Source: a virus
Direction: 5' to 3' (one strand)
DNA: 45,797 bases
Virus record (IMG/VR): IMGVR_UViG_3300031673_016581
Coordinates: 1 to 45,797 of that record
The notes under the pieces were generated by a model. It ran no database searches and was not told where the DNA came from. It saw only the letters and a list, made by a program, of their open reading frames with translations. Below are positions 13,373-41,943 of the stretch, one piece after another; position 1 is the stretch's first letter, and each line of letters opens with the position of its first letter. The position numbers and the translations under genes are program-made.

Positions 13373-13413
13373 TTGCTGGGCCTTGGGTGAACCCTTTTTG
13401 ATAGGTGAGATGT

Positions 13414-15273
13414 GTGACTACTAAAGTGCGCGAAGTTAGTTTAGCAGACACTTCTAAGGCCTCGAACTCTGGTCGCCGCCTCAAGACGAGCGTATATGTA
13501 TCGGGTAGAGGGTCTGCTCCATATATTATTCCTAAGGAAGTTGAGTTCGACTGTAGTGGGACTCGTAAGGAGTGTCCGTTGTGTCCGTTGGTAGGAGGTG
13601 CGAAGGGTCTCGAGATTGTTGCCTCTAACCGGAACATCCTCAACCTCCTAGGTAAGGCGGATAGTACGGTAGTCAAGTACATAAGGTCTTGGGCAGGTGC
13701 GTGTGACAAGGCGCACGTTCACATCATGAGTACTCAAAATGTCGAGGAGCTGAGAGTTAGCCCTCGGATGGAGACGTTTCTTCCCTCTGCGGAGTATGTT
13801 ACCCGCGAGTGCCTCTATCTCGGGCACGGACTTTTACCTAATCGTCCGTACTCCATTGAGTGTTTTTGCTACCCTGACCCGACTAGCCAGCGTGCTGTGC
13901 TAGTGTCTGATAAGGCGATGCCCTTGAGGGATATGCTAGAGACCTTCAACTTCCAGAAGTGTAGGGAGTCTCTCGAAGTTTTCAGGAAGAGTCCGGGAGA
14001 GCTGTTTGACGAGCTGTATGCGGACTTCGTGTCTAATGTGCATCACATCGTAGGTCGGCGGGCTTTGCAGATAGCCTTCGACCTCGCGTTCCATAGCGTT
14101 CTCGAGTTCAAGTTCCAGGGCGTGAAGTTGCGCCGTGGCTGGGTCGAGGCGTTCATTTTGGGTGATAGTGGTCAGGGCAAAACTGAGATGAGTTTGTGCT
14201 TGCTGAATCACTACAGTTTGGGAGACAGGATTCAAGGGGAAGGTGCCAGCACTGCTGGGCTCATAGGCGGGCTTGAGAAGCTCGGCGAGAGGTGGATACT
14301 TGTTTGGGGGAGAGTCCCTCAGATGGACAAGCGTCTATTGATTATCGACGAGTTCTCGGGACTTAGTGAGGAGGACGTAGCTAAGCTGAGCGACATTAGG
14401 TCTACAGGTATTGCGGAGATAACCAAGATTAGGACGGAGCGTGCGAGTGCTCGGACTCGTCTTGTGATGATGTCCAATACTCGTGACGGTCAGCCTTTGT
14501 CGACGTATAACACGGGTGTAGAGGCTCTGAAGGGAGTATTCGGACACGCCGAGGACGTGCGTAGGCTGGACTTCGCGGTCTGTGTTGCGAGTGGGGAGTT
14601 GCCTGCAGATGCTTTTAATGCTATTCAGGAGAGTGTGCCCCACAAGTATACTGGGGAGTTGTGTCGTAACCTAATTTTGTGGGCCTGGTCGAGGTCTGTC
14701 GACGATGTTGTTATTCCTGAGGATGTTACTCAGATGATTCTGACGCGCGCTTCGGAGCTCTCAGGGATGTATAGCTCATTCATTCCGCTTGTGGAGCCTG
14801 CGGACATGCGCGTCAAACTGGCGCGGCTCGCGGTTGCTTGCGCGTGTAGGTGCTTTTCCTCGGACGAGTCTGGCCGAGTGTGTGTGATGCTGGGACATGT
14901 TAAGTTCGTGTACGAGTTCCTGCGTCAGTGTTACGATTCAGCTTTTATGGCCTATGACACCTACAGTACTAGAGTCAAGCACGAGTCTGTCTTTGACGAC
15001 GGGGAATTTGAGAGGGCGCTCGAGGACTTTCGAGCATTGCCCAGGTGTGGAGAGTGTGCAGACATCCTGACGCGCTTGGGTAATCCCTTTAGGGGCTACG
15101 AGCTTGGTGAGCAGTTAGGCATAGAGTCTTGGGATGTTAAGGAGATTACCCGTTTTCTGTCGCGGTATCGCATGATTCAGACGTTGCCTGCGGGCTACCG
15201 CAAGTTATCCAAGCTCCAGACGTTCCTGAAAAGAATCGACGCTTTGCGTGTCGAGAAGGAGGCGCGAGGATGA
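13414..15273 (+). CDS. MCM-like AAA+ replicative helicase
   Basis: A 619-residue protein. GTG 13414 is preferred to GTG 13405 because GGTGAG then lies at the right distance. A CPLCPL cysteine pair near the N-terminus may be a zinc site. Walker A is G250-D-S-G-Q-G-K256-T. Walker B is I-I-D312-E313-F, followed by SEEDVAKLSDI, an EITKIRTE loop and MMSN (sensor 1), which is the order of an MCM core (IDEF, SIAKAGI hairpin, AAANP). The C-terminal 70 residues look like a winged helix. It would be the replicative helicase of the virus; MCM-type enzymes are archaeal/eukaryotic in cells but occur on some phages and integrated elements. Confidence 0.7.
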   Translation: MTTKVREVSLADTSKASNSGRRLKTSVYVSGRGSAPYIIPKEVEFDCSGTRKECPLCPLVGGAKGLEIVASNRNILNLLGKADSTVVKYIRSWAGACDKAHVHIMSTQNVEELRVSPRMETFLPSAEYVTRECLYLGHGLLPNRPYSIECFCYPDPTSQRAVLVSDKAMPLRDMLETFNFQKCRESLEVFRKSPGELFDELYADFVSNVHHIVGRRALQIAFDLAFHSVLEFKFQGVKLRRGWVEAFILGDSGQGKTEMSLCLLNHYSLGDRIQGEGASTAGLIGGLEKLGERWILVWGRVPQMDKRLLIIDEFSGLSEEDVAKLSDIRSTGIAEITKIRTERASARTRLVMMSNTRDGQPLSTYNTGVEALKGVFGHAEDVRRLDFAVCVASGELPADAFNAIQESVPHKYTGELCRNLILWAWSRSVDDVVIPEDVTQMILTRASELSGMYSSFIPLVEPADMRVKLARLAVACACRCFSSDESGRVCVMLGHVKFVYEFLRQCYDSAFMAYDTYSTRVKHESVFDDGEFERALEDFRALPRCGECADILTRLGNPFRGYELGEQLGIESWDVKEITRFLSRYRMIQTLPAGYRKLSKLQTFLKRIDALRVEKEARG

Positions 15274-15436: not shown

Positions 15437-15542
15437 GTTTCTAGCGTGGTTGTGGTGGGGCATAGTGAAGCCTATGAATACTCCCCTGAGAGGCTTAAGA
15501 GAAACATTGAAGGAGGCAGACGAACATGGCGAGCGAGGCTAA
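15408..15542 (+). CDS. Small basic tryptophan-rich protein
   Basis: A 44-residue frame overlapping its neighbours on both sides, with a basic amphipathic N-terminus and WLWW. It contains the queC ribosome site (AAGGAGG). No ribosome site of its own is obvious, so the call is weak. Confidence 0.3.
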   Translation: MVRTARTVLRFLAWLWWGIVKPMNTPLRGLRETLKEADEHGERG

Positions 15543-16218
15543 GAAAGCGGTAGTGTTACTGAGCGGTGGTTTGGATTCCACAGTGCTGCTGTATAATATG
15601 GTTAAGGACTTTGAGTGTTACCCCCTGACCGTATCGTATGGACAGAGGCATGAGAAGGAGGTCCTGGCGGCCCGAACGGTCTGTATGGCGCGCACTCGTG
15701 ATTTGCTTGTCAGGTGGACTTGGCTCAACCTGGAGGTGCTTAAGGAGTTCCTACCTAGCGCACTAACGGGTGTAGGTGAAGTTCCGCGTGGTCACTACGA
15801 GACAGAGTCTATGAAGCTAACAGTTGTACCCAACCGGAACATGATACTGTTAGCTATTGCGGCCGGCTATGCCCAGGGTCTAGGTGCAGGAACGGTTGCG
15901 TACGCTGCGCACCAAGGGGACCGTGCAGTCTATCCCGACTGCCGTCCAGAGTTCGTTACGAGTGTTGCGGAGACTACACGTCTTGGGACTGGTGATGCTG
16001 TAGTACTATATGCACCTTTTGTGCACATGACCAAGGCCGAGATTGTTAAGCTGGGTGCGAAGTTGCATGTTCCGTTCCCGAAGACTTGGAGCTGCTACGA
16101 GGGCGGTCCATTACACTGTGGGGTTTGTGGAACTTGTACTGAGAGACGTGAGGCCTTTCGGTTGGCTGGAGTGTATGATTCTACGAAGTATGTTGCGGAG
16201 GTAGTTAGCCATGCCTAG
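15526..16218 (+). CDS. queC: 7-cyano-7-deazaguanine (preQ0) synthase QueC
   Basis: A 230-residue ATP-dependent enzyme that turns 7-carboxy-7-deazaguanine into preQ0. The PP-loop S13-G-G-L-D17-S18 is exact, and the C-terminal zinc cluster shows as SCYEGG then HCGVCGTC. AAGGAGG precedes the ATG. It has normal QueC length and no amidotransferase (GAT) extension, so a dG+ (archaeosine-type) end product is not predicted. FolE, QueD and QueE are encoded 5-9 kb downstream, and a DpdA-type transglycosylase follows FolE. Confidence 0.95.
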   Translation: MASEAKKAVVLLSGGLDSTVLLYNMVKDFECYPLTVSYGQRHEKEVLAARTVCMARTRDLLVRWTWLNLEVLKEFLPSALTGVGEVPRGHYETESMKLTVVPNRNMILLAIAAGYAQGLGAGTVAYAAHQGDRAVYPDCRPEFVTSVAETTRLGTGDAVVLYAPFVHMTKAEIVKLGAKLHVPFPKTWSCYEGGPLHCGVCGTCTERREAFRLAGVYDSTKYVAEVVSHA

Positions 16219-16444
16219 GTTGCGGGACTTGTTACCTACACGCTTCTTGAGGCCTCACTTTAGTGAGTTGATTCTCGAGAGGCCACCCGAGGGTAAGGAA
16301 GTTAATACTAGCTACGGAGGTCCTAACATGCCTCGGTACCAGTTCTGTAACTGCGGACTATCCTCACGAAGGGTGAAGAAGACTGTGAGTGGCGCCTTGT
16401 ACGATTGTAGGTGTCACGGAGAGTTTTTTGTGAAGGCTGCGTGA
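16211..16444 (+). CDS. Small zinc-binding protein with a nested start
   Basis: A 77-residue protein with GGAGGT before the ATG and overlapping queC. The C-terminal 38 residues hold C-N-C and C-R-C-H, a compact zinc knuckle. An in-frame ATG at 16328 has its own perfect GGAGGT site, so a 38-residue zinc-only form may also be made. The N-terminal part is basic. Function unknown. Confidence 0.5.
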   Translation: MPRLRDLLPTRFLRPHFSELILERPPEGKEVNTSYGGPNMPRYQFCNCGLSSRRVKKTVSGALYDCRCHGEFFVKAA

Positions 16445-16445
16445 G

Positions 16446-16766
16446 ATGAAGGAAGACGAAGACGAAGTGATTGCGTTGGACGAGCTGTACCTACAGACTC
16501 CGGTCGGGCCAGCACCGTTCTGGCAGGTATTTGACGAGGCGACTGAAACTCCGTCTAAAATGGTGCTGCCTGTAGGCCGGTTCTATGGTATGTACAACTC
16601 TCAGGAACTAATTGCGTTGCGTGGCTGGGTTGCGCAGGCTCGTATGGGGCGTGCGGCATCGATGCAGTTGCTGGGCTTGCTCGACCAGGTGGTTGTGTTG
16701 CCGAATGGAGTGACTTGTACTATTGAGGAGTTGCGAGAGGCTATTGAATATGCTGAGGAGGTGTAG
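16446..16766 (+). CDS. Hypothetical protein
   Basis: A 106-residue protein beginning immediately after the preceding gene. It has an acidic N-terminus (KEDEDEVIALDE) and a helical C-terminal half. No family recognised. The GGAGGTG inside its end serves the next gene. Confidence 0.5.
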   Translation: MKEDEDEVIALDELYLQTPVGPAPFWQVFDEATETPSKMVLPVGRFYGMYNSQELIALRGWVAQARMGRAASMQLLGLLDQVVVLPNGVTCTIEELREAIEYAEEV

Positions 16767-16769
16767 ACA

Positions 16770-17111
16770 TTGATAATACACGACGATGAGACTCTTGAGG
16801 AGGCGGTTGCGTTGGTCCTTCAGGGGCCTGTTAAGTACTCGGACGAGTATTCGTATCGGACTGTAGCATCTGAGACGCAGCTACGTGAATTGATTACGCA
16901 GGCTTTTAGTCGTCAGGATATCTCGATAGTTGTTCCTGTAGGTCAGGAGCGCTCGATGGAGGTTCACTCTGTAGCGCGTCGAGCTGTCAAGCTGGCTCGG
17001 GAGAATGCAGAGAAGACTGCGGTCAGGCAGTTCTTGTCCGATAACCCCGAGGTTCGTAAGGCTAAGACCGTCGACGAGGCTATGAGGATATTCCGTACGA
17101 AACATAAGTAG
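16770..17111 (+). CDS. Hypothetical protein
   Basis: A 113-residue protein from TTG 16770 with GAGGAGGTG before it. Charged helices; the end is basic (FRTKHK). No motif recognised. It forms a tight set with the neighbouring small genes. Confidence 0.5.
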   Translation: MIIHDDETLEEAVALVLQGPVKYSDEYSYRTVASETQLRELITQAFSRQDISIVVPVGQERSMEVHSVARRAVKLARENAEKTAVRQFLSDNPEVRKAKTVDEAMRIFRTKHK

Positions 17112-17126
17112 GAAAGGAGGTGACGT

Positions 17127-17360
17127 ATGCACCATGAGGCGTTGGAGAAGAAAGGGAAGAGCGCAATTCGGACTGGCTTAGTGCTGGCTCTTGTGGGCGT
17201 GTTACTTGGAGTGTTGGCGACCATGTTCCAGAATAGCCTAGTCATTATGCTTGGGCTGTTGTTAATGGCAGTAGGATTGCTCTTCCTAGGAGTCTGGTCG
17301 GGCATAAACTACGCCGACAAGGCTCTTCCTATTGAGGAAGCGTCGGATGACGCCAAATGA
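17127..17360 (+). CDS. Small membrane protein, two hydrophobic segments
   Basis: A 77-residue protein with AAAGGAGGTG before the ATG. Basic N-terminus, segments at about 17-35 and 38-58, and an acidic tail. It overlaps the next membrane gene by 14 bases. Function unknown. Confidence 0.55.
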   Translation: MHHEALEKKGKSAIRTGLVLALVGVLLGVLATMFQNSLVIMLGLLLMAVGLLFLGVWSGINYADKALPIEEASDDAK

Positions 17361-17535
17361 CGTCCTGAGAACCGGCCTGGAGTTGCTAATTGCTTTCGCA
17401 ATTGGGGCGTTTGCGGAGGCAGTTTTAGTAGCAGTTCTGGTAGTCGTTATCACCGGAACTGTTTGTATCAAAGTATTTAGGGAGGTGAAGTATGCCACTG
17501 TTAGTGGACGAAATGCCCGAGCAGGCAAGGCCTGA
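17347..17535 (+). CDS. Small membrane protein
   Basis: A 62-residue protein. ATG 17347 has GAGGAAG upstream; a longer start at 17332 is less likely. One or two hydrophobic stretches are rich in alanine and valine, followed by a basic end. It overlaps the MazG-like gene by 44 bases. Confidence 0.45.
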   Translation: MTPNDVLRTGLELLIAFAIGAFAEAVLVAVLVVVITGTVCIKVFREVKYATVSGRNARAGKA

Positions 17536-17803
17536 AGACCCGGTTTGGACTACAGCTGTAATGGCCTACGAGCTTGGTAGCGTGATTAGGTGTCTAGTTC
17601 GTGCCGAGCATATCCAGTTGGCGGGCGGTGCGCCCGAGCGTGTGAAGGCCCTCTTGGCTACGGCTCGTATTGGAGCAGCTGACCTTATTACCCAAGTTCG
17701 CGTTCTGAGTGAGCAAATGGGTTGGAAGTGGATTGACCTGGAAAACGACGGCATCGAGCGATTCAAGGAGCGTATGACCGAGATAGCCGAGGGGAAGTTA
17801 TAG
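17492..17803 (+). CDS. MazG-like protein
   Basis: A 103-residue all-helical protein with GGAGGTG before the ATG. The helices YELGSVIRCLVRAEH and GAADLITQVRVLSEQMGW follow the MazG-like pattern seen in phages (E-L-x2-V near E, and A-D-L-I-x-Q-x-R-x-L). MazG enzymes hydrolyse NTPs or dNTPs and may lower alarmone effects or clean the pool. The usual E-E-x2-D metal motif is only partly present, so catalysis is uncertain. Confidence 0.55.
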   Translation: MPLLVDEMPEQARPEDPVWTTAVMAYELGSVIRCLVRAEHIQLAGGAPERVKALLATARIGAADLITQVRVLSEQMGWKWIDLENDGIERFKERMTEIAEGKL

Positions 17804-17870
17804 TAGACGTGGTCAAGCCGGGACATGAGGTTGTGGACGGCGTCGAGAATGTCATTGTAAGGAGGTGACT

Positions 17871-18374
17871 TTGAAAAAGCATAAAACTTTGGTGGCAGTG
17901 TGGCTTCTAGTGGGCTTGCTTGCGGGCCTGACACTTACTGTGCCAGCTGCTGGTGCGTTAGATGTCTGTACCAACTGTACTGTGGCGATTTCCTGGGCAG
18001 TTGGAGAGATTCAGGGCGTAATGCCTACGGACTTTACGACTGAGCCTCTAGAGGTCGATTGGAATGTCAACGAGATTGAGTATATCTGGTTAGGACTCAA
18101 CTGCTCAACGACACTCGACGACCTCTTTATAGTGTTCGAGACCGGAGGCGACGTACTTGAGGTTGTGAGGACTACTCCACCCGCTGGTTGGCCGTCTCTG
18201 GTTACGTATAGGTCGGACTTTGAGTTGGGAGCGTACGTCTACGGACCTGCTGGAGGGTTCCAGTTAAGTTCGGGCCAGACTAGTGCCGAGTTTACAGTTA
18301 TGCCGACGGTGACTGGTTGTCGCGACTTAAAGGTGTACATTATTCGGGACGAGCAGCCCTTTCAGGAGTTGTGA
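17871..18374 (+). CDS. Secreted hypothetical protein
   Basis: A 167-residue protein from TTG 17871, with AAGGAGGTG at the right distance (GTG 17865 is too close). Residues 1-29 are a classical signal peptide ending GALD. The mature part is beta-rich with paired cysteines (C-T-N-C, and later single cysteines), suggesting an extracellular beta-sandwich. It is followed, with a one-base overlap, by a surface protein gene, so both may form a surface complex. Confidence 0.6.
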   Translation: MKKHKTLVAVWLLVGLLAGLTLTVPAAGALDVCTNCTVAISWAVGEIQGVMPTDFTTEPLEVDWNVNEIEYIWLGLNCSTTLDDLFIVFETGGDVLEVVRTTPPAGWPSLVTYRSDFELGAYVYGPAGGFQLSSGQTSAEFTVMPTVTGCRDLKVYIIRDEQPFQEL

Positions 18375-19531
18375 TGATGGTACGAGTTTTTTTTGTTCTG
18401 GCAATACTTGTCGCTGTTGGGCTCTGTCCTGCAATCGCTAGTGCCGATGAGCCTGTAGAGGTAGTCTCGAACATTCTGGTGGGTGGAGTAGACTGTTGCG
18501 AGTGTGGGTGCGAACCATGTCCCGAGTGTCCTGACATTACTCCTGTTAGTCCCGTAGCCGTCTCGACTCGGCTTGTGGAGTCGGTTGGTGAGACGAGTGC
18601 TACTCTGATGGGACTGTTGGTGGGTGATGGAGGTGGTGTGTGTTCAGTACGATTTCTCTATGGTGCGTCGACATCCTATGGCTCTAATACTTTGTGGGAG
18701 GATGGTTTAAGAGGCAATGACTCCTTTAGTGCCGAGCTTGAGGGCCTGTTACAGGGTACTGTGTACCACTATCGTGCTCAGGCTGGGAACACTACAGTTA
18801 CTGTTGAGGGCTCTGACGAGACGTTTGCGACGCCTCCAGGAGCTGTGATTGCGCCTGGTGCGACTCCTAATGTAGGCTCGATTCTGTTGACCTGGATGAA
18901 GGGTACTGGAGCTACGAGAACGCTCGTTAAGCGGAGCACGGTGAGTGTTCCTACTACTCCGACTGAAGGGGACTTAGTCTATTTTGGCCCCGATATGTCT
19001 TGTAACGACGCTAACCTAGAGAGTGGTGTAATGTATCAGTATGCTGTGTGGTCCGAGGCCAACGGCGTCTACTCTACTACTGCTTTGACTGTAGCCACTA
19101 TGCCTCTGGCGGCTGAGCTGCCGTCCTCGACGAACTGGTGGGGTGCGATTATTGGTATTGGTGGCATAATGGCGGTTATTGCACTCTACATCGTCTTCAG
19201 GCATCGTCGTCCCGAGCCTCCCCCGCCGTCGCCTACTGTACTTGAGGCTGACAAGGAGCCTTCTGGTAAAGCTACGTCGGTGTCGAAGCTGCCTAAGGTA
19301 AGTGAGAAGAAGGAAACCAAGGAGGAGGTTAAGGAGGTCGCCAAGAAGGAGGAGCCCGAGAAAGCCTCCGAAGAGGCGCCGCCTGGCGGTTCGGGCTTCG
19401 ATGAACATGCACCGCCTTGTGCCGTGTGTGGTTCGCGGATTACTCAACTTAACGAGGGTTCCAAGACTAAGTATACTTGCATGAAGTGCGGAGCTACGTT
19501 CGAGACGCCTACTGAGTCTGGAGATGCTTAA
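18374..19531 (+). CDS. Surface protein: signal peptide, FN3-like domain, TM, cytoplasmic zinc ribbon
   Basis: A 385-residue protein from ATG 18374, where AGGAG gives a ribosome site. In order: a signal peptide (residues 1-25, ending ASAD), a cysteine cluster (CCECGCEPCPEC), one or two fibronectin-III-like beta domains (near residues 65-240), a transmembrane helix (about 258-280), a lysine/glutamate-rich linker, and a C-terminal zinc ribbon (CAVCG...CMKCG). The topology puts the ribbon inside the cell. An anchored adhesin or assembly scaffold is plausible. Very unusual in a virus. Confidence 0.65.
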   Translation: MMVRVFFVLAILVAVGLCPAIASADEPVEVVSNILVGGVDCCECGCEPCPECPDITPVSPVAVSTRLVESVGETSATLMGLLVGDGGGVCSVRFLYGASTSYGSNTLWEDGLRGNDSFSAELEGLLQGTVYHYRAQAGNTTVTVEGSDETFATPPGAVIAPGATPNVGSILLTWMKGTGATRTLVKRSTVSVPTTPTEGDLVYFGPDMSCNDANLESGVMYQYAVWSEANGVYSTTALTVATMPLAAELPSSTNWWGAIIGIGGIMAVIALYIVFRHRRPEPPPPSPTVLEADKEPSGKATSVSKLPKVSEKKETKEEVKEVAKKEEPEKASEEAPPGGSGFDEHAPPCAVCGSRITQLNEGSKTKYTCMKCGATFETPTESGDA

Positions 19532-20564
19532 AGAACTGATAGCTGAGGATGTCCAGGAACCTAAGGTAACCAAGCTCTTTCGAGCTAGTGAGGTAGGGGA
19601 GTGCGAGACGTACCTGTGTAGGGTGCTTCTCGGGCATCATCCCTTACCGATGTCTGGCCGCGTGCGCCATATGCTTGCCGACGGTATTACTCACGAGAAG
19701 GATATTGTGGAGCGGCTGGTTCGAGAGGGTGTTGACGTGAAGCACTCGTGTCTCGACTCTCAGTTGTCTATTGTGTGTGTCGACGAGGGCGATTTGAAGA
19801 TTCCTGGACATCCTGACGGACTATTGGAGCACCAGCCTTCAGGGTTCGAGCTCGACTACGCTGAAGAGGGGTTCAGGTACGATCGTGGTACGTACCTGTT
19901 AGAGATAACTGCTCCGAATCACTTCTCGTTCCTACGAGTTGAGCGCGACCACATGCGCTCGGCACTGTGGCGGAAGTACGTACAAATTCAGATGTACCTG
20001 AACTCTGAGGTTATTAAGGAGCGTACTGACTGTTGTGTAGTCGAGGTCAAGAACAAGAATACGTCCGCTCTCTACGAGGAGGGGGTTGTTTACGACCCGA
20101 AGGTCGTACGGGGTGTAATGGATGTGCTGTGTCGCGTACAGGTCCTAGTTGCGAACGGCGAGGTAAGTCCTTACAGGTGTAAGGACTGGCGTAGGAGCTA
20201 CTGCAAGTTTCGGCATATGTGTTTCGGTGAGGAGGTAGTAGAGGTTGAGCCTTCTGGTAAGTTCCTTAGTGGAGAGAGTCTTTCGAATGCTGAGGAGCTC
20301 CTACAAGCGGCTGAGCTATGGCTAAAGGGTAAGGATATGGTTGAGTCCGGTGAGGAACTGGTTGAGGATGCTAGGTCTCTTTTTCGGGCAACCATTGAGG
20401 AGTATGGTGCTTCTGGCTTGACTGTAGCGTGCGCTAGGGCTGCTATGATAAATGCAAACCGACGAAAGATTAGCCTAGACATTTTCAAGGCGAAGTACCC
20501 AGAGGCCTATAAGGATATGGTGTACTTGGAGCCGAGTCGGTATGTGAGGGTTACTAAGACATGA
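19524..20564 (+). CDS. Cas4-like PD-(D/E)XK nuclease with Fe-S cysteines
   Basis: A 346-residue protein. The nuclease core shows as G-H-P-D98-G, then L-L-E127-I-T129, then the Q-I-Q motif at 154-156; the usual E-x-K lysine is threonine. Cysteines C32 and C219, C227, C233 match the one-plus-three Fe-S pattern of Cas4 and AddB. Such enzymes process DNA ends during recombination. The C-terminal 110 residues are helical and outside the usual core. No cas1, cas2 or repeats are present, so a role in replication or recombination, not CRISPR, is likely. Confidence 0.7.
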   Translation: MLKELIAEDVQEPKVTKLFRASEVGECETYLCRVLLGHHPLPMSGRVRHMLADGITHEKDIVERLVREGVDVKHSCLDSQLSIVCVDEGDLKIPGHPDGLLEHQPSGFELDYAEEGFRYDRGTYLLEITAPNHFSFLRVERDHMRSALWRKYVQIQMYLNSEVIKERTDCCVVEVKNKNTSALYEEGVVYDPKVVRGVMDVLCRVQVLVANGEVSPYRCKDWRRSYCKFRHMCFGEEVVEVEPSGKFLSGESLSNAEELLQAAELWLKGKDMVESGEELVEDARSLFRATIEEYGASGLTVACARAAMINANRRKISLDIFKAKYPEAYKDMVYLEPSRYVRVTKT

Positions 20565-20686
20565 GTTCCCTAGAGGACACGCTACCTGGGTACAGAGAGG
20601 CTGTGAAGCTGGGCTATCAGTTGGCAACGTACTCGGATGACCGCAACAGCGCAACGTATTGTAAGAGCGACTTGACGCGGAGGTAA
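20561..20686 (+). CDS. Small hypothetical protein
   Basis: A 41-residue frame starting in the overlap ATGA with the nuclease stop. Polar and tyrosine-rich, one cysteine. Weak evidence: only the coupled start and the tight fit before the next gene. Confidence 0.35.
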   Translation: MSSLEDTLPGYREAVKLGYQLATYSDDRNSATYCKSDLTRR

Positions 20687-20691
20687 GTAAT

Positions 20692-20889
20692 ATGGATAAA
20701 AGTATGATTACGGGAATGAATATGTTCTTTTTAGGGATGGTAGGTAAAATGCTACCTACTATATTTCCCAACTATGCCTTTCCTACTTGGGTGGATCCTG
20801 CATCCCTACTTCTTCTGCTGATTGGATTTACCATTATAATCCTCAGTGGGACAGGAGTAATTAAAACTATGTTTGGTAAAAGTAATTAG
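20692..20889 (+). CDS. Small membrane protein, two hydrophobic segments
   Basis: A 65-residue protein with GGAGGTAAG before the ATG. Segments at about residues 8-25 and 36-56. Base composition is richer in A/T than its neighbours, as for several other small membrane genes here. Function unknown. Confidence 0.5.
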   Translation: MDKSMITGMNMFFLGMVGKMLPTIFPNYAFPTWVDPASLLLLLIGFTIIILSGTGVIKTMFGKSN

Positions 20890-20900
20890 AAGGAGGTATA

Positions 20901-21113
20901 ATGGACATAATAAGTTGGGTAGAGTGTATCTGGACAAAGGTGCCTACGTGTCGCTTCTGTAGTCACGTTTACGAGAACGCGGAGGGGTACCCTAGTATCT
21001 GGGTCGAGGACAAGAAGGGCGAAGACCACCTGCGGCGGTTAGTCGAGTCCCATATGAGTTTTGCACATAGGGGCAAGCGAGTCTGCTACCGCGGCAAGTT
21101 GTGGTCTAAATAA
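20901..21113 (+). CDS. Small C2H2-like zinc protein
   Basis: A 70-residue protein with AAGGAGG before the ATG. It carries C-R-F-C near residue 17 and histidines at about 43, 51 and 56, like a single zinc finger. A DNA- or RNA-binding accessory role is possible. It directly precedes queD. Confidence 0.5.
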   Translation: MDIISWVECIWTKVPTCRFCSHVYENAEGYPSIWVEDKKGEDHLRRLVESHMSFAHRGKRVCYRGKLWSK

Positions 21114-21123
21114 GGAGGTATGA

Positions 21124-21507
21124 GTGTACAAACTGAAGGTTAGGATGCACTTCGACGCGGCACACTTCATTAGGGACTATCAGGGTAAGTGTAGTCGCGA
21201 GCATGGACATCGCTGGACTGTTGAGGCGGTCTTCGAGGGTAAAGTGCTTGATGCGAAGAATATGTTGTCGGACTTCGCGAACATCAAGTACGTAATGGGC
21301 AACATAATAAACGGTATGCTTGACCATTACCAACTCAACGAGACTCTGAAGGAGCCAAACGTGACTGCCGAGTTCCTGGCGGAGTACCTCTACAAGCGGT
21401 TCTGGGACGCTTTTACCGGTAAGGGTTCCTTGGTGCAGGCGCTAGCGACACTGAAGAGTGTCACGGTATGGGAGAGTCCAGACTGCGGCGCGGAGTACGC
21501 TGAATGA
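21124..21507 (+). CDS. queD: 6-carboxy-tetrahydropterin synthase QueD
   Basis: A 127-residue enzyme of the 6-pyruvoyl-tetrahydropterin synthase family; step two of preQ0 synthesis. Zinc ligands are H14, H27 and H29 (E-H-G-H), and catalytic C23 lies in GKCSREHGH. LDHYQLNE and the end VTVWESPDCG are also family marks. It starts at GTG 21124 after GGAGG and overlaps nrdJ by four bases. Confidence 0.93.
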   Translation: MYKLKVRMHFDAAHFIRDYQGKCSREHGHRWTVEAVFEGKVLDAKNMLSDFANIKYVMGNIINGMLDHYQLNETLKEPNVTAEFLAEYLYKRFWDAFTGKGSLVQALATLKSVTVWESPDCGAEYAE

Positions 21508-23480
21508 CGATTCAGGCACCGAGCGAAGCGTCTCAAAAGGTTCTGTGCAAGTCGTACTTGCACAGAGACGAAACTCAAGGTGAGTGCCCTTATTGTGGTC
21601 AGCGTCACGAGAGCATCGACGCGATGTTCGATAGGGTGTCGTTTGGCAATGCTGCGTATCGCGCGATGCTGAGCGCGTTCGACTTTCTACCGAACTCTCC
21701 GACGATGTTTAATGCGGGTGGTCTCGGTACTCTCAGTGCGTGTTTTAAGTTCGATGTGGCGGACGATATGGAGTCCATACTTGAGGTGGGTCGGAAGTCT
21801 GCACTAGTTCAGAAGTGGGGTGGAGGAGTCGGGTACTGCTTGTCCGAGTTGCGACCCGAGGGCGCACCGATAAGGTCTACGCACGGGAGAGCGTGCGGTC
21901 CAGTCGCCGTGATGCACATGTATCACGCAATAGCTGAGATGATTACTCAGGGTGGGAAGCGTAGCGGTGCACAGATGGCGATTCTGCACTGCGACCACCC
22001 CGATATACTGAAGTTTGTGAGTAGTAAAGAGCGCGAGGGAGTTCTCGATACCTTTAATATCAGTGTGGCGGCGACTCAGGAGTTCATGGAGCATGTAGCC
22101 GACGCTGGGCCGCGAAAGGACCTGTTCGACGAGATTGTCAAGCGAGCCTGGTCTAATGGTGACCCCGGACTGTACTTCATAGATACTGCTGAGGTATTCA
22201 ATCCGACTCCCGACCTGGGAAAGTTAACTGGGACTAATCCTTGTGGTGAAGTTCCCTTGTTGGATAACGAGTCCTGCAATCTTGGGAGCATTAACCTGTC
22301 TCACTTTGTTGAGTCGGGTCATGCCGGCTTTAACTGGGATAGGTTGAAGGGTGTGGTGACTTTAGCTACTCGCTATTTAGACGATGTTGTCGACCGTGAT
22401 TATTATCCTGTTAAAGAAGTTCGGGAGGCTACAATACGCACTCGCAAGCTTGGTCTGGGAGTGATGGGCTGGGCTGATGCTCTTGCAATGCTTCAAATAC
22501 CCTACGACTCTAGAGAGGCTTGTGACTTGGCCCGTGGCGTTATGCAATTCATACACGATAGAGCTCGTGCGGCGAGTAACGAGTTGCTTGAAGACCGGGG
22601 TCCTTGTTCTGCGGACTCTTCAAGGCGGAATGTATGTGTTACGTGTATCGCGCCTACAGGAACCATCTCGACTGTGGCAAACTGTTCTAGTGGCATTGAG
22701 CCCCATTTCTCGCTTGACTACACTCAGTTCATGGGTGACGGGACTGCGTTACCGCGCAAGGTGTCGTTCGGAGCCTTCGTGCCTAGGATAGCGAGCGAGA
22801 TTTCGTGGCAGTACCACATACACCACCAAGCTGCGTTTCAGGTGTATACTGACTTGGCGGTTAGTAAGACTGTTAACATGCCGAGTTCTGCGACCGAAGG
22901 GGATGTGCGCGATGCGTACATGATGGCTTGGGAGTTAAGGTGTAAGGGTGTAACAGTATACCGTGAAGGTAGTCGCGTGAGGCAAGCGCTGGCTAAGAAC
23001 TACGTGACTGACATTAAGTTTGATGGACGACGCAAGTTAAGGCGGGATGGAGTGAGCCTTCGGCACAAGTTCGATGTGGGAGACGTTGAGGGGTACTTGC
23101 ACGTCGGCCTCTTTGATGATGGGAGTCCTGGAGAGGTATTCATTACGGGCGTTAAGCAGGGTAGCACTATTTCAGGTCTATTGGACGGTGTTGCTATCTT
23201 GACTAGTCTAGCGCTTCAACGTGGCGTACCCTTGGAGGAGATGGTTTCCAAGTTGCAGGGTACGAAGTTCGAGCCTGCTGGACTCACTAGGAATGCGAGC
23301 ATTCCAACTACAACGTCGTTACTGGACTACATCTTTAGGTATGTGCAGCTCAGGTGTAGCGGACAAGAGGTAGCGAGTCTCGAGTATAGTGGCATGCTTT
23401 GTCCGGATTGTGGAGCTACAATAAAGTTTCAGGAGGGTTGTATGCATTGTTCGAGAGATTGTGGGTGGTCAAGATGTTAA
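21504..23480 (+). CDS. nrdJ: Class II (adenosylcobalamin) ribonucleotide reductase
   Basis: A 658-residue reductase that converts ribonucleotides to deoxyribonucleotides using vitamin B12. The active-site loop N245-P-C247-G-E249 is exact, the first redox cysteine lies in LSACFKF, and the phosphate loop PTGTIS is present. The C-terminus ends in a zinc/redox cluster (CPDCG...CMHC...CGWSRC), typical of NrdJ. No ATP cone is seen at the N-terminus, so allosteric activity control is probably absent. The host must supply cobalamin. It overlaps queE. Confidence 0.93.
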   Translation: MTIQAPSEASQKVLCKSYLHRDETQGECPYCGQRHESIDAMFDRVSFGNAAYRAMLSAFDFLPNSPTMFNAGGLGTLSACFKFDVADDMESILEVGRKSALVQKWGGGVGYCLSELRPEGAPIRSTHGRACGPVAVMHMYHAIAEMITQGGKRSGAQMAILHCDHPDILKFVSSKEREGVLDTFNISVAATQEFMEHVADAGPRKDLFDEIVKRAWSNGDPGLYFIDTAEVFNPTPDLGKLTGTNPCGEVPLLDNESCNLGSINLSHFVESGHAGFNWDRLKGVVTLATRYLDDVVDRDYYPVKEVREATIRTRKLGLGVMGWADALAMLQIPYDSREACDLARGVMQFIHDRARAASNELLEDRGPCSADSSRRNVCVTCIAPTGTISTVANCSSGIEPHFSLDYTQFMGDGTALPRKVSFGAFVPRIASEISWQYHIHHQAAFQVYTDLAVSKTVNMPSSATEGDVRDAYMMAWELRCKGVTVYREGSRVRQALAKNYVTDIKFDGRRKLRRDGVSLRHKFDVGDVEGYLHVGLFDDGSPGEVFITGVKQGSTISGLLDGVAILTSLALQRGVPLEEMVSKLQGTKFEPAGLTRNASIPTTTSLLDYIFRYVQLRCSGQEVASLEYSGMLCPDCGATIKFQEGCMHCSRDCGWSRC

Positions 23481-24154
23481 TCAACGAGGTGTTCAAGTCT
23501 TGCCAAGGAGAGGGTCCAGGAGCGAGGCTCCCGACTATATTCGTGAGAATGGCCGGGTGCAATCTCGCTATCGCTAAGAGGCCCTGTAGTTGGTGTGATA
23601 CGCCACGTGCTCAAGCACGTGGCGACTGGGACCTGACTGTAGAGCAGGTTGTGGAGCTTGTCGTGAGCCGCTCTGAGGGGTGTTCGAGGGTGTGCATTAC
23701 TGGCGGCGAGCCGCTTTATCAGCTAGCAGAGTTGCAGAGGCTGATAGCTGTTCTGCAGGGTTCCGAGTACTTCGTAGAGGTGTTCACGAATGGTACGCTG
23801 TTCCCGCCTATGGCGCTCTTGCGGGATGTACAGTCTTGGATTGTGGACATCAAGACCCCTTCATCGGGAGTGTCCGACGCGTGTCGCGTGTCGCATTGGC
23901 TAGGAGCTGCGCGGCCTCAGGACGCGGTCAAGTTCGTTGTATTGGGTGAGATAGACTTGGAGTACGCTGTAGAGACGTTGAAGTCCCGGTATACTCGTGC
24001 TCCGGTGTTCATAAGTCCTTGTATTACCGATGACGTTCTGCGCGAAGGCTCTAGGCCGTGGTTGCAGCGTGTATGGACTTTTTGCTACAGACACAACTAC
24101 TGCTTTGGACTTCAATTACATAAGGTCGCATTCGGAAATGCTCCGGGAGTATAG
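23474..24154 (+). CDS. queE: 7-carboxy-7-deazaguanine synthase QueE (radical SAM)
   Basis: A 226-residue radical SAM enzyme making 7-carboxy-7-deazaguanine from the QueD product. EVFKSCQGEGP opens it; the Fe-S cluster motif is C-x8-C-x2-C (GCNL...CSWCDT), shorter than C-x14-C-x2-C of some relatives but known in others. GGEPL, VDIKTPSSG and LQLHK complete the family marks. ATG 23474 is chosen since the longer frame lies inside nrdJ. A long perfect palindrome at 23601-23624 lies inside the coding sequence. Confidence 0.93.
   Translation: MLINEVFKSCQGEGPGARLPTIFVRMAGCNLAIAKRPCSWCDTPRAQARGDWDLTVEQVVELVVSRSEGCSRVCITGGEPLYQLAELQRLIAVLQGSEYFVEVFTNGTLFPPMALLRDVQSWIVDIKTPSSGVSDACRVSHWLGAARPQDAVKFVVLGEIDLEYAVETLKSRYTRAPVFISPCITDDVLREGSRPWLQRVWTFCYRHNYCFGLQLHKVAFGNAPGV
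23601..23624 (+). repeat. Perfect 11-bp inverted repeat inside queE
   Basis: CGCCACGTGCT and AGCACGTGGCG are separated by only two bases. In RNA it would form a very stable hairpin (with a loop opened to about four bases); in DNA it is a cruciform-like site containing two CACGTG boxes. It lies within codons just after the CSWCDTP motif. Confidence 0.75.
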
Positions 24155-24177
24155 TTTCCCCAGAAAAGGAGGTTAGT

Positions 24178-24381
24178 ATGAGAGCTAGAAGGTGGGGAGT
24201 CGTGCTTAGGGACGGGACTACGTTCGTGGGACTTCGAACCGCTGCATGTGTTTGGTGGCATGACAGCATTAGGGTACTTACGTTCGTAGTGGACGACCCT
24301 CGAGAAACTGGTATGCCTAGGGGCGTGCTAGTGAGGGTGCGTACAGACAGCTTGCTGTACCGGTACAGGTTGCCGGTGTGA
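24178..24381 (+). CDS. Small hypothetical protein
   Basis: A 67-residue basic protein with AAAGGAGG before the ATG. Mostly beta-like (WGVVLRDGTTFVGL, VLVRVRTDSLLYRYRL). No family recognised. It overlaps the next gene by GTGA. Confidence 0.5.
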   Translation: MRARRWGVVLRDGTTFVGLRTAACVWWHDSIRVLTFVVDDPRETGMPRGVLVRVRTDSLLYRYRLPV

Positions 24382-24545
24382 GTAGAGACTGGGTAGTGTA
24401 TACTATTCTGCTGGCCTTGGGGGCTAGTGGAACTGCGGTAGGAGCTGTGGGGGTAGTGTTGTGCACTCCTTTCGCTTTGGCTGTGGGCTTTGGAGTGGCA
24501 GCAGCTACTGGAGTGCTTCTCTTGGTGCGCGCGGTGCGTACTTAA
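24378..24545 (+). CDS. Small membrane protein, two hydrophobic segments
   Basis: A 55-residue frame beginning at GTG in a GTGA overlap. Two glycine/alanine/valine-rich transmembrane segments, short basic end. Followed by AAAGGAGG for folE. Function unknown. Confidence 0.45.
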   Translation: MSRDWVVYTILLALGASGTAVGAVGVVLCTPFALAVGFGVAAATGVLLLVRAVRT

Positions 24546-24563
24546 TGGAAAGGAGGACTACGA

Positions 24564-25121
24564 ATGGACAAACTGAGAGCCGTGGCCGCTGTTAGGGAGC
24601 TCTTACTAGCCCTGGACCGGGACTTAGAGTCTGAGGGTCTACAGGATACTCCTAGGCGCGTCGCGGAGATGTACATAGAGCAGTGTTCGGACGCAGAGCC
24701 GTTCGAGTATAAGTCTTTTACAGAGGTTCGACACGAGGAGCTTGTGTTAGTGCGGAACATTCCCATTACTTCCTTCTGTGAGCATCACCTAGTGCCGTGG
24801 TATGGTAGGGCGTTCGTGGGCTACATTCCACATAAGAAGCTCCTGGGTTTGAGCAAGCTGGCACGTCTTGTGTACTCGTGCAGTGAGGGCTTTACTATCC
24901 AGGAAGGGGTTACGAAGCTGATTGCTGACAGGTTGTATGACGAGTTCGAGCCCTTGGGAGTGATGGTAGTTATCAACGCGATGCATACGTGTATGAACCT
25001 GCGAGGCGCTAGGGCGTTTGGTGCTAGTACAGTAACTTCGGCCGTTAGAGGTGTGATGAGAGACGTGCCGGCGGCGCGAGCTGAGGTGCTGGCTCTAATG
25101 CAGCAGGAGGTCAAGCAGTGA
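24564..25121 (+). CDS. folE: GTP cyclohydrolase I FolE
   Basis: A 185-residue type IA enzyme that opens GTP to 7,8-dihydroneopterin triphosphate, the first step to preQ0. Zinc ligands C72, H75 (FCEHH) and C143 (HTCMNLRG) are present, as are GYIPH and SKLARLV. It overlaps the DpdA-like gene by four bases, tying the pathway start to its DNA-modifying end. Confidence 0.95.
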   Translation: MDKLRAVAAVRELLLALDRDLESEGLQDTPRRVAEMYIEQCSDAEPFEYKSFTEVRHEELVLVRNIPITSFCEHHLVPWYGRAFVGYIPHKKLLGLSKLARLVYSCSEGFTIQEGVTKLIADRLYDEFEPLGVMVVINAMHTCMNLRGARAFGASTVTSAVRGVMRDVPAARAEVLALMQQEVKQ

Positions 25122-25882
25122 GGGCTGCACTAATGGCCCCTACAAACTTGTTGCCTTTAGTACAGCCCTTTAGCAACTATCACCTTGTATTAGCGTACAA
25201 GGTCATCTACGATGTGGGGTACTATAACTACTGTAAGGAACGTTCGAAGGCCGGTGACTATGTCATATTGGACAATGGTGCGGTTGAGAAGGGTGGACGT
25301 AGCGTTCCGTTGAAGAATATAGTGCTTGCAGCGGTGTTGTGCAAGCCGTCTTTGGTAGTCCTCCCCGATTTTTTGTTCGACAGTCTTAGGACCTTGGACG
25401 AGCTGGAGAACGCGTTGCGAAGCCCTGCGTTCCGTTTTCTTAAGAAAGTGCACCCTGGCGTGAAACTGTGCGCTGTCGTTCAAGGAGTCGATGAGTCGGA
25501 CTGGCTGGAGTGCTTCGACATTCTGAACGACCGTAATAACGGTATCGACGTTCTAGGCATTCCGAAGATAACGGGCCAGTTCTTCGGTAGCCGCCTAGAG
25601 GCTCTCAAACGAATTAGTCGTAGGGTCAAGAAGCCCTGTCATCTTTTTGGTGTGTGGTGGCAGTCGACTCTTGAGGAACTTCGTCAGGAGGCCCAGTTCC
25701 ACTTTGTGCAAGGAGTGGACACTCCTAAGCCTGTTCGATTGGCAGCGCACGGCCTGAGCCTTTCGCAGTGGGCTGCGATGCCTAGGGGTAAGGACTTCTT
25801 GGACAGGCCTTGCGTCGACTACAATGTAGAGCTGTTGCGGGACAACTGCGCCAAGTTTGTTGAGCTGTGTGGGGGGAGTTGA
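25118..25882 (+). CDS. dpdA: DpdA-type DNA 7-deazaguanine transglycosylase
   Basis: A 254-residue TGT-fold protein. I see the phage DpdA pattern: ILDNGAVE (L51-D-N-G), VLPDFLFD (P83-D84), HLFGVW near 176, and the nucleophile-type GVDT with D201, followed by KPVRLA. These enzymes swap guanine in DNA for a 7-deazaguanine such as preQ0. GTG start overlapping folE. It lacks the tRNA-binding zinc cluster C-x-C-x2-C of bacterial TGT, which supports a DNA target. With no queF in view, the predicted base is 2'-deoxy-preQ0. Confidence 0.85.
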   Translation: MRAALMAPTNLLPLVQPFSNYHLVLAYKVIYDVGYYNYCKERSKAGDYVILDNGAVEKGGRSVPLKNIVLAAVLCKPSLVVLPDFLFDSLRTLDELENALRSPAFRFLKKVHPGVKLCAVVQGVDESDWLECFDILNDRNNGIDVLGIPKITGQFFGSRLEALKRISRRVKKPCHLFGVWWQSTLEELRQEAQFHFVQGVDTPKPVRLAAHGLSLSQWAAMPRGKDFLDRPCVDYNVELLRDNCAKFVELCGGS

Positions 25883-26823: not shown

Positions 26824-27210
26824 ATGATAGTACCAGACGAAGAGGTAACTTCGGTCCGCACCCTGCAGCAACGCCTAGGGAGTGTACGAACAGCGCTGTA
26901 CCAGGGCATCTTACACAAGTCGACTACGGGGCTCTTAGTATCAGAAGAGTGGCTCCGAGATGCCCTGGAGAAGCGAGTGCTGGAACTCGAGCACCTGATT
27001 GTCGAGCTGACGGGCATTGAAGCGGATTGTCATTGTAAGGTGTGTGGTGTAGGCACTGACGGTGAGGATAGGGTATTCTGGGCCTCGAGTGCGTTGTACA
27101 TAATCGAGTGTGGTATAAAGCTAGAGCATCTGAGTTCTGGCGACCCTCTTTGTCAGCGCTGCCGCAGGAAGGCTAAGTTGTACAAGTCAACTGAGGGGAT
27201 TTCGGCATGA
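26824..27210 (+). CDS. Hypothetical zinc protein with helical N-terminus
   Basis: A 128-residue protein with TGGAGGT before the ATG. Residues 1-65 are helical and leucine-rich; the C-terminal half has C-H-C-K-V-C-G and C-Q-R-C-R-R, separated by a beta-like insert, making a zinc-binding domain. It overlaps the polymerase start (ATGA), so it may be a polymerase partner. Probably controlled by RNA-4. Confidence 0.55.
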   Translation: MIVPDEEVTSVRTLQQRLGSVRTALYQGILHKSTTGLLVSEEWLRDALEKRVLELEHLIVELTGIEADCHCKVCGVGTDGEDRVFWASSALYIIECGIKLEHLSSGDPLCQRCRRKAKLYKSTEGISA

Positions 27211-29672
27211 AACCCAATGAGTGTTTAGGTTGTGCCCTCTACGACTGTCCGGGACCTGTACCTGGAGAGTTTACCGACGAGGAGGTTGACGTGGTCTTTG
27301 TAGGTGAGGCCCTCGGTGCTGTTGAGGTTCAGCAGCATCGTCCGATGGTAGGTCAAGCGGGTCGGGTGTTGCGGCATACTATCAAGTACTATATCGAGGA
27401 CAGGAAGTTGCCTCTACGTTACGGCATAACGAACGTCTGGGTGTGTCGTCCTCCAGGTAACAAGCTTCCGGAGGATGCCGAAGAGCCAGCTGAGTACTGC
27501 CGGAGGCGACTATACGAGGACTTGACAACTCATGGCCAGAAGCTTACAGTACCTCTGGGTAGTACAGCTCTGGATACTATAACTAATGTGGGAATGTCGA
27601 TTACATCGATTCAGGGCCACATGTTCTCGACCGACTACAACGGCACTCGTCTAGTTGTATTGCCCATGTTTCATCCCTCGTACTTACGTCGTCACGGCTC
27701 GAGTTGGCGCTATTGGGAGTTGGGTTGGGACAAGCTCGAGATGTACATTCGCGACGGCAAGACGCACTTCATACCATTCTCGCAACGAAAGGTGCACCAT
27801 GCGCACTCTCCTGCAGAGGCGTTGCAGTTCCTGAAGCGTATCCGTGAGCTGTCGCGAGAGTATCCAGTAATGTCGTGTGACGTCGAGACGAGTGCGGGCT
27901 ATCACCCTTGGGCGGGTGCACGACTACTCTCGGTTAGCATAGCATGGAAGTCTACTGAGTGTGTCGCGATAATGTGGCACGATATCGAGCACTTTCCTGC
28001 GTATGATGAGTTGAAGGCGCTACTCGAAGACCCGAACATAATTTGGCTGTGGTACCAGGGATTATTCGACACAGCACACTTTAGGAACGTTGGTATGGAG
28101 CCGCGTATCGACAGAGACGGGCTACTCGAGATGCACCTAATAGATGAGCGTCCGAACATTCACGGTCTTAAGTCTAACTCGTGGCTCTTTTTGGATGCAC
28201 CTAACTGGGAGGCAGACATTAAGGAGTATGCACCCAAGAAGGAAGACTCGTACGAGAAAATTCCGCCTGAGAAGCTTCTCGAGTATAACGGTATGGATAC
28301 CGTGCATACTATTCACTTGTCCGAGGTTGCTCACGACTACTTCGAGCTCGAGGGCTTGACTTGGTACTACGATAATATCCTGGCTCCTGCGTACGATATG
28401 TTGGCACGGTCGCGATTCATAGGACTGCGGTGTGACTTGTACAGGGTTAAGTCGTTGCAGGGTGAGATTCAACCCGTGCTTAACGACCTGCACAAGCAGA
28501 TGTGTGAGGTGGCTGGCGACCCGTTTTTCAATCCTCGGTCGCCTGCACAGGTCAAGGAACTACTACACTCAAGGGGTATTATGGTGCCGAATACCCGCAA
28601 GGAAGTTCTCGAAGAGTATCTGGGTGACGAGCTGGTCGATGCGATTCGAGACTACCGGGATGCTGACAAGATGATGAGTACGTACATTATAGGCGTCGTT
28701 GACGATGTGTACGATGACTTGAGGGTACACCCAGACTGGAAGTATCCTACGGAGACTGGAAGGTTAAGATGCGGCGACCCCAACCTGCTTGGAATGCCTC
28801 GAAAGGCCGAGATTGCCGAGCACAAGTGGAAGCGGTTTATCAAGGAGATTTGGGTTGCGGACCCCGACACACTATTTATGCATATAGACAGGGGTCAGAG
28901 CGAAGTGAGGTGTAACGTCTATCTAGCTAAAGCTAAGGACTTTATGCAACGGTTGATTGACGATCCTACTATCGACATCCATGGCGAGTACGCTACGATG
29001 TTATTTGGGCCCGATTTCACCTACGAGCAGCGCTTCCTGGCCAAGATGATAGTAACCTTTGCAGTCCCGTACGGCGCTGAGGCTGAATCTGTGGCAAGGC
29101 GGTTTACGGCTGCGGCTCGTCAGACGGCTCGTAACATAGCCGAGAAGGCTGGGCTTGATCGCAGAGCCCTCAAGGGCAGTGCAAACCGAGTAGGATTGCA
29201 GAATGGTATCGTGTACTATCACGCTTGGACAGTGTTGGAGGCGCGGAAGATTATCAGCGACTTCTTTGCTAAGATGCCCGAGGTAGACGAGGCTCGTAAG
29301 AGATGGAAACATACTGCACTGACTGAGGGTAAGTTGGTGAACTACTTCGGGCGAATTAGGCGGTTTGGCTTGGTAGCACAGGAGCGTCGCAAGCATGTAG
29401 GGAACGAGGCCTACAACTTTCCACCGTCTAGCCTCAGTAACGACCTTAATTTACTGAGCTGTATCGAGACTAGGCGGCAGTTTGGTAAGTATGGTGTGGA
29501 AGTACTCGTGCCGATTCACGACGCGGGACTACTACGGCTTCCAAAACAAGGGGCCGAGCAGTTAGCTGCGGACATTCAGGGTGTCTGGGAGGCTCTACCT
29601 ACACAATACTTACATACTGACTTGCCGTTTCCATGTGAGGTAACACTCGGCGAGCGCTGGAGCGACCTGTAG
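27207..29672 (+). CDS. Uracil-DNA glycosylase / family A DNA polymerase fusion
   Basis: An 821-residue fusion. Residues 1-200 are a family 4/5-type uracil-DNA glycosylase domain: C-L-G-C...C Fe-S ligands, GEALG, MVGQAGRVLR, VCRPPGNKLP and FHPSYLRR. Then a 3'-5' exonuclease domain: D225-V-E227-T, FDTAHF and Y-N-G-M-D. The polymerase part has motif A D561-R-G-Q-S-E, an O helix R609-x3-K613...Y622-G with one extra residue compared with Pol I, and motif C H771-D772-A (normally H-D-E). SPO1-type phages also join a glycosylase-like domain to Pol A. Likely the main replicase, keeping uracil out of new DNA. Confidence 0.88.
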   Translation: MKPNECLGCALYDCPGPVPGEFTDEEVDVVFVGEALGAVEVQQHRPMVGQAGRVLRHTIKYYIEDRKLPLRYGITNVWVCRPPGNKLPEDAEEPAEYCRRRLYEDLTTHGQKLTVPLGSTALDTITNVGMSITSIQGHMFSTDYNGTRLVVLPMFHPSYLRRHGSSWRYWELGWDKLEMYIRDGKTHFIPFSQRKVHHAHSPAEALQFLKRIRELSREYPVMSCDVETSAGYHPWAGARLLSVSIAWKSTECVAIMWHDIEHFPAYDELKALLEDPNIIWLWYQGLFDTAHFRNVGMEPRIDRDGLLEMHLIDERPNIHGLKSNSWLFLDAPNWEADIKEYAPKKEDSYEKIPPEKLLEYNGMDTVHTIHLSEVAHDYFELEGLTWYYDNILAPAYDMLARSRFIGLRCDLYRVKSLQGEIQPVLNDLHKQMCEVAGDPFFNPRSPAQVKELLHSRGIMVPNTRKEVLEEYLGDELVDAIRDYRDADKMMSTYIIGVVDDVYDDLRVHPDWKYPTETGRLRCGDPNLLGMPRKAEIAEHKWKRFIKEIWVADPDTLFMHIDRGQSEVRCNVYLAKAKDFMQRLIDDPTIDIHGEYATMLFGPDFTYEQRFLAKMIVTFAVPYGAEAESVARRFTAAARQTARNIAEKAGLDRRALKGSANRVGLQNGIVYYHAWTVLEARKIISDFFAKMPEVDEARKRWKHTALTEGKLVNYFGRIRRFGLVAQERRKHVGNEAYNFPPSSLSNDLNLLSCIETRRQFGKYGVEVLVPIHDAGLLRLPKQGAEQLAADIQGVWEALPTQYLHTDLPFPCEVTLGERWSDL

Positions 29673-30469: not shown

Positions 30470-30487
30470 TGTCTATGGGGAGTGAGT

Positions 30488-31081: not shown

Positions 31082-31113
31082 CGGAGGTATAAGCGGCAAA
31101 TGGAGGTGCATAC

Positions 31114-41941: not shown

Positions 41942-41943
41942 GC

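Follow-up and report, generated by a model that had tools for sequence, protein, structure and literature searches.

A preQ0 gene set with a small, separate DpdA-like protein points to likely 7-deazaguanine DNA in an IMG/VR virus

Does a virus make a 7-deazaguanine base and place it in its own DNA? The question is raised by IMG/VR record IMGVR_UViG_3300031673_016581, one strand of 45,797 bases, which was analysed over its whole length (hereafter the window). Between positions 15526 and 25882 it encodes FolE, QueD, QueE and QueC, the enzymes of 7-cyano-7-deazaguanine (preQ0) synthesis, together with a DpdA-like protein adjoining FolE. A first-pass annotation had read this stretch as a complete route from GTP to deoxy-preQ0 (dPreQ0) in viral DNA. 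Our analysis indicates that virus-made 7-deazaguanine DNA is likely, and that the DpdA-like protein (small DpdA) belongs to the superfamily of tRNA-guanine transglycosylases (TGT) and DpdA as a separate small subfamily.

The four pathway enzymes are real, and their catalytic motifs could be placed by alignment to solved structures, so the claim of a complete preQ0 route held. QueC, the preQ0 synthase (230 aa; 15526..16218, +), matched PF06508 (6.7e-60) and TIGR00364 above its cut-off, aligned with the solved QueC 3bl5 and carried the SGGLDS motif, with no fused amidotransferase domain; its zinc motif, CX7CX2CX2C, has the commonest spacing, present in 34 of 46 QueC copies found in the small-DpdA loci described below. 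QueD, 6-carboxytetrahydropterin synthase (21124..21507, +), matched PF01242 (PTPS; 1e-28) and TIGR03367 (2.1e-25, at 88.9 bits slightly below the cut-off of 89.25), and its C-SREHGH, LDH and WES motifs lined up with solved QueD/PTPS. FolE, GTP cyclohydrolase I (24564..25121, +), matched PF01227 (3.1e-53) and 4uqf (2.9e-41), and carried FCEHH and HTCMNLRG. The radical SAM enzyme QueE, 7-carboxy-7-deazaguanine synthase (23474..24154, +), was aligned with the solved QueE structures 5tgs/4njg; it matched phrog_2076 (1.7e-34), a Pfam radical-SAM family and TIGR04349 (3.1e-29, far under the cut-off of the model), and it most likely starts at the ATG at 23474, not at the TTG at 23399 listed as the open reading frame (ORF) start. 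QueC, QueD and FolE were thus recognised by Pfam, PHROGs and NCBIfam, and QueE was picked up by PHROGs and, at scores under the cut-off, by the QueE models of NCBIfam. The genes of the cassette share one transcription direction. Since queC lies 4.9 kb away from the remaining set, this is not one tight operon.

The absences that had been noted were borne out as well. A Pfam scan of 70 window ORFs gave no QueF or amidotransferase (GATase) match at E below about 3e-4, the QueF signal being limited to a weak T-fold echo in FolE. The dG+/dPreQ1 markers Gat-QueC, ArcS, QueF and QueF-L were not found in the window, ArcS having been looked for without a model of its own, and a PADLOC scan of the 70 ORFs detected no member of the Dpd family (dpdB-K).

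The small DpdA gene (25118..25882, +) encodes 254 aa. The GTG start codon (25118) shares bases with the stop codon of FolE and is preceded by its own Shine-Dalgarno sequence (caggaggtcaagca-GTG). Neither Pfam nor NCBIfam recognised the protein, and in PHROGs it hit just one unnamed family, weakly. A tblastn search of phage genomes revealed proteins of 23-31% identity in Weizmannia phage Youna2, Bacillus phages BSP7/BSTP and Cellulophaga phages, mostly annotated as hypothetical. Used as a single sequence, small DpdA retrieved nothing from IMG/VR and only chance-level matches from the PDB; a five-sequence alignment was required for the IMG/VR search, and this reached 54 loci. Conservation was computed over 41 homologues, about 255 aa in size. 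G46, L51, D52, N53, E57, H175, G178 and D201 were invariant, D84 was present in 40 of 41 members, and Q122, G123, G147 and N243 were likewise nearly invariant. The motifs LDNG, PDFLFD and GVDT singled out in the first-pass annotation are therefore real family constraints, as the conservation of Asp52 (in LDN), Asp84 and Asp201 shows. The CxCxxC zinc motif was found in none of the 41 members. The pathway itself is an established one. Most of the records seen carry no annotation for the enzyme subfamily; the member in Flavobacterium phage vB_FspM_immuto is already annotated as DpdA in GenBank, and the subfamily has possibly been named earlier in the literature.

The AlphaFold2 model of small DpdA (pLDDT 95.3, pTM 0.92) gave tRNA-guanine transglycosylases as its best Foldseek matches, and VIA aligned it with TGT over 226 residues (Z 16.9, 3.4 Å), in agreement with the TIM-barrel TGT fold; the DNA-guanine transglycosylase 7ui4 was not among the 50 VIA matches listed, which is no evidence either way. 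When the 41-member profile was searched against PDB sequences, 7ui4 was the sole significant match (2.5e-4), and no tRNA TGT appeared at E < 10. The tRNA TGT model PF01702 had no match in the record and matched 14 of 14 control genomes, a test to be read with the caution that 9g DpdA and nt-1 DpdA2 fail to match PF01702 as well. The closer kinship to tRNA TGT that the first-pass annotation had named as evidence against itself was thus looked for and not seen. Small family alignments were built for the comparison with 9g and nt-1, because single-sequence profile comparisons were too weak. The profile-profile E values (hhalign) were 2.9e-5 with nt-1 DpdA2, a sign of kinship only, 1.8e-4 with tRNA TGT and a non-significant 0.09 with 9g DpdA. 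In the profile alignment, Asp201 fell on the TGT nucleophile (MFDCV), Asp84 on the FDE aspartate and Gln122 on the QG glutamine, and in the alignment with 9g DpdA, LDN(G) stood over LDSG. The 9g-type DpdA profile, a shallow one of four sequences, recognised no small DpdA member (best E 240), nor did the hidden Markov model (HMM) of nt-1-type DpdA2 (best E 310; 0.037 in the reverse direction). Because the group HMMs separate cleanly, we regard small DpdA as its own subfamily, neither 9g-type DpdA nor nt-1-type DpdA2. The proposed DpdA-type transglycosylase is accordingly upheld at the level of the superfamily, by fold, profile and motifs, but not as a member of either known DpdA group.

To assess the genomic linkage, 55 loci were retrieved by the small DpdA gene itself rather than by preQ0 genes; the counts are raw, with no background rate. 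Within 8 kb of small DpdA, 44 of the 55 loci carried FolE, 42 QueE, 35 QueD and 31 QueC in the main cluster, and a family-A DNA polymerase (PolA) was near in 42, typically directly downstream. As the loci were found by the small DpdA gene itself, this clustering goes beyond a chance arrangement of one contig. Youna2 and BSP7 show the gene order of the window: AAA ATPase, DUF669 or its neighbour, helicase, QueC, QueD, QueE, FolE, small DpdA and PolA. What the window and its relatives have in common is the replication/modification module alone, plus ThyX, NrdJ and dUTPase in a few loci. In L080 (L-numbers are locus labels of this analysis), contig VRUG01000009.1 of a Planctomycetota metagenome-assembled genome (MAG), small DpdA lies between ThyX and PolA with no preQ0 genes within 8 kb; this is probably a phage contig inside the MAG bin. 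In the halovirus HVTV-1, previously described as being without DpdA, the hypothetical protein gp69 (L110:6804-7964; NC_020158 33803-34963) comes right after FolE in a QueC-QueD-QueE-FolE run; its match to the small DpdA profile is weak but collinear (hhalign 4.2e-5), and it carries HLLG and SIDG motifs.

We consider that these observations are best explained, with a probability of roughly 0.7 for the whole, by a virus that makes its own preQ0, has small DpdA put it in the place of guanine and thereby protects its DNA. The genes with their motifs, the fold and the genomic linkage are observed; all of the chemistry, the base, the substrate and the protection are inferred. FolE would convert GTP to dihydroneopterin triphosphate, QueD would turn this product into carboxytetrahydropterin, QueE would form 7-carboxy-7-deazaguanine, and QueC would yield preQ0. 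Small DpdA is then predicted to swap guanine for preQ0 by a transglycosylase mechanism, with Asp201 as the nucleophile and the base pocket holding Asp52 and Asp84. Its substrate would most likely be freshly replicated viral DNA, close to the replication proteins; insertion would take place in finished DNA. Host nucleases that recognise or touch guanine N7 would be hindered by the 7-deazaguanine DNA; as a precedent, phage CAjan cannot have dPreQ0 without its DpdA, which guards it against restriction enzymes (PMC6884629). Less certainty attaches to preQ0 as the base and to the step that inserts it. Several points weigh against this explanation. The record is possibly incomplete. The pairwise profile link to 9g DpdA, though collinear, is non-significant, and that to nt-1 DpdA2 is weak. 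TGT folds also occur in enzymes acting on other polynucleotide substrates. The cysteine spacing of the window QueE is unusual, CX8CX2C as compared with CX3CX2C in 22 readable phage relatives, with the qualification that the spacing of solved QueE varies too (CX14CX2C in 4njg). Finally, the kinase, MazG-like and HD partners of small DpdA in its relatives hint at nucleotides, not DNA, as the substrate.

This last point leads to a strong rival, which we nevertheless judge unlikely on balance: small DpdA may exchange guanine on dGMP or another free deoxynucleotide, dedicated kinases would phosphorylate the product up to the triphosphate, phosphohydrolases of the MazG or HD type would deplete dGTP, and PolA would incorporate the modified base in place of G. 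Such a system would parallel, for guanine, the diaminopurine route of Z-genomes. A family profile search of named phages found a clear member (3.3e-33), unannotated, in Campylobacter phage CP220 (L109:8676-9452; FN667788 54675-55451), which keeps all key residues but G46 and G147; 13 more Campylobacter phage records, some of them duplicate entries, carry small DpdA at 95% identity or more. CP220 encodes QueC, and its small DpdA gene stands apart from queC, between a fusion of an HD phosphohydrolase with a Pnkp-like kinase and a P-loop kinase-like protein. Relatives of this P-loop protein are encoded just downstream of small DpdA in L008 and L011, and in immuto the annotated thymidylate kinase is similar to it. 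P-loop proteins are encoded directly upstream of small DpdA in BSP7, Youna2, MA9V-3, L006, L016 and L045, as is an AAA_18 P-loop protein in phi13:1. MazG-like proteins were found near small DpdA in nine loci, cluster c9 alone having matched in the MazG comparison; clusters c13 and c7, upstream of small DpdA, gave no MazG match. This set of HD, kinase and MazG-like neighbours is similar in composition to systems that work on nucleotides, for example the Z-genome route (PMC12783734), and the frequent PolA neighbour would fit as well. Firehammervirus DNA is reported to have dG completely replaced by a 7-deazaguanine (PMC10273834; PMC8306585), and Hutinet 2019 listed the Campylobacter Firehammervirus phages among those with no DpdA, mentioning that a route through modified dGTP had been proposed. 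The occurrence of a small DpdA member in these phages makes it a candidate for the enzyme missing there.

Several observations argue against nucleotide-level exchange. In the window, no kinase or MazG gene adjoins small DpdA, several of the P-loop matches are weak, and the adjacency of PolA may merely mirror the replication module. We know of no TGT-fold enzyme that acts on free nucleotides, which also counts against it. Because no kinase or MazG gene lies next to the enzyme in the window, we keep exchange at the DNA level first. The fuller proposal, that small DpdA is not a DNA-level transglycosylase but exchanges bases on deoxynucleotides and, together with kinases, phosphohydrolases that remove dGTP and a family-A polymerase, replaces G completely, as reported for Firehammervirus, appears slightly more doubtful still; if true, it would give Firehammervirus its missing enzyme. 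The window ORF at 17492-17803 was considered as MazG-like and was dropped for want of profile support. Two small helical-looking families, in 13 and 7 loci (L020:9150-9500, L019:9354-9728 and relatives), lie just before small DpdA and had no MazG or Pfam match.

A second alternative concerns the base alone and is compatible with either insertion route. The pathway would be real, and its end product would be dADG, a 7-carboxy base or some derivative for which this virus has an unrecognised gene. The simplest prediction is dPreQ0, as in CAjan and Rosebush, which contain it and have the same gene set (PMC6884629); the first-pass annotation had proposed this base as well. This prediction is insecure, because a member of the same subfamily occurs in phages with another base: CP220, with QueC and small DpdA, carries dADG (PMC8306585). 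The immuto cluster holds QueF and a formyltransferase, many window ORFs belong to no family, and the contig is perhaps incomplete. With no QueF, GATase or Dpd match found in the window, and a QueC that seems complete, a base other than preQ0 is possible but improbable, to about the same degree as nucleotide-level exchange. That preQ0 instead feeds queuosine or archaeosine in host tRNA, with small DpdA as a tRNA enzyme, would accord with the TGT fold and with QueC, QueD, QueE and FolE, which alone equally fit tRNA modification, but is very improbable in view of the unmatched PF01702, the missing zinc motif, the profile favouring the DNA enzyme 7ui4, the linkage to a DNA polymerase and a window with no tRNA genes found.

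Taken together, these results show that phages scored as preQ0-making but DpdA-less can carry a small subfamily missed by the Pfam and NCBIfam models used, among them the Campylobacter phages with reported complete dG replacement. They also make one question directly testable, namely whether guanine is swapped in finished DNA or before polymerisation.

The surroundings of the cassette give it an unusual setting. Upstream lie a family-B DNA polymerase (PolB) of the protein-primed type (778..2511, +; phrog_11768, 8.8e-29), related in tblastn to, among others, the protein-primed-type polymerases of phage Toil, His1, His2 and ABV2; the ThyX thymidylate synthase (5484..6074, +; PF02511, 4e-58); and a dUTPase (8979..9410, +; PF00692, 1.1e-22 among the window ORFs, with its motifs in the translation). 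The shared replication module comprises a Sak4/AAA_24 ATPase (11995..12756, +; PF13479, 1e-17; phrog_124), a DUF669 single-strand-binding-like protein (12923..13372, +) and a helicase of the MCM/phage primase-helicase type (13405..15273, +; phrog_18685, 1.1e-91) with 31% identity to the BSTP/BSP7 primase-helicase. A Cas4-like exonuclease (19524..20564, +; phrog_1990, 2.6e-12) lies between QueC and QueD, and the B12-dependent ribonucleotide reductase NrdJ (21504..23480, +; TIGR02504 above cut-off) lies within the cassette; the role of NrdJ is dNTP supply, outside the base pathway. Downstream, a fusion protein combines a family-4 uracil-DNA glycosylase (UDG), a 3'-5' exonuclease and PolA (27207..29672, +), and co-occurs with dUTPase and ThyX in the same virus. 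The record therefore holds two DNA polymerases, PolB and the PolA fusion, and IMG/VR scans gave no close relatives of either.

The stretch 30184-45797 is a putative virion region without recognised relatives. It encodes a 74-aa two-helix membrane protein, a 2039-aa protein, a Zot-like ATPase (42293-43066) and a 759-aa lipoprotein-like protein; the 2039-aa protein and the Zot-like ATPase had no tblastn match in known phages. Several small membrane proteins are encoded in the window. The window proteins that were scanned gave no match to a terminase, portal or HK97 capsid protein, and no tail genes were recognised. The virus could be non-tailed, and, judging from the putative virion region, is perhaps of a spindle-shaped or pleomorphic type. 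The first and last 2 kb of the record contain no terminal repeats, and the contig may be a fragment. GC content and strand are uniform along the record; a chimeric assembly is possible despite this. Because the cassette sits in a virus that has a polymerase of the protein-primed type, and in which no genes of tailed viruses were recognised, the module seems to travel among viruses of rather different kinds.

Comparison with known systems places the window as follows. It differs from the bacterial Dpd restriction-modification island in that the PADLOC scan found no dpdB-K. With tRNA TGT, small DpdA shares the TIM-barrel fold and the catalytic aspartate positions, but it is about 120 residues shorter, lacks the PF01702 match and zinc motif, and has no tRNA-modification genes nearby. 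The DpdA2 of Vibrio phage nt-1 gave the best value among the DpdA/TGT profiles compared and shows the same motif order (DSGG/LDN, FDE/PD, QG, HxLG, DS), but has 464 aa as compared with 254, and the group HMMs lack mutual recognition. Phage immuto has a small DpdA member (2.5e-45) with QueD, QueE, FolE and PolA, and differs in its own QueF, formyltransferase, annotated pyrophosphohydrolase and thymidylate kinase-like gene. The dADG system of Campylobacter Firehammervirus (CP220, CPt10) shares QueC and a small DpdA with the key residues, but there the gene lies away from queC with HD and P-loop flanks, and complete dG replacement is reported. CAjan/Rosebush-type systems have the same FolE, QueD, QueE, QueC and TGT-superfamily transglycosylase, likewise with no amidotransferase or QueF, whereas the window enzyme is of a separate 254-aa subfamily, not the 9g/CAjan type, and the virus itself has a PolB of the protein-primed type, with no tail genes recognised. 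The clusters of BSP7/BSTP and Youna2 belong to tailed phages with a P-loop protein ahead of small DpdA, and no annotation of a UDG-PolA fusion like that of the window was seen in them; they share with the window the small DpdA subfamily itself (30-31% identity) and the gene order, including the helicase and PolA.

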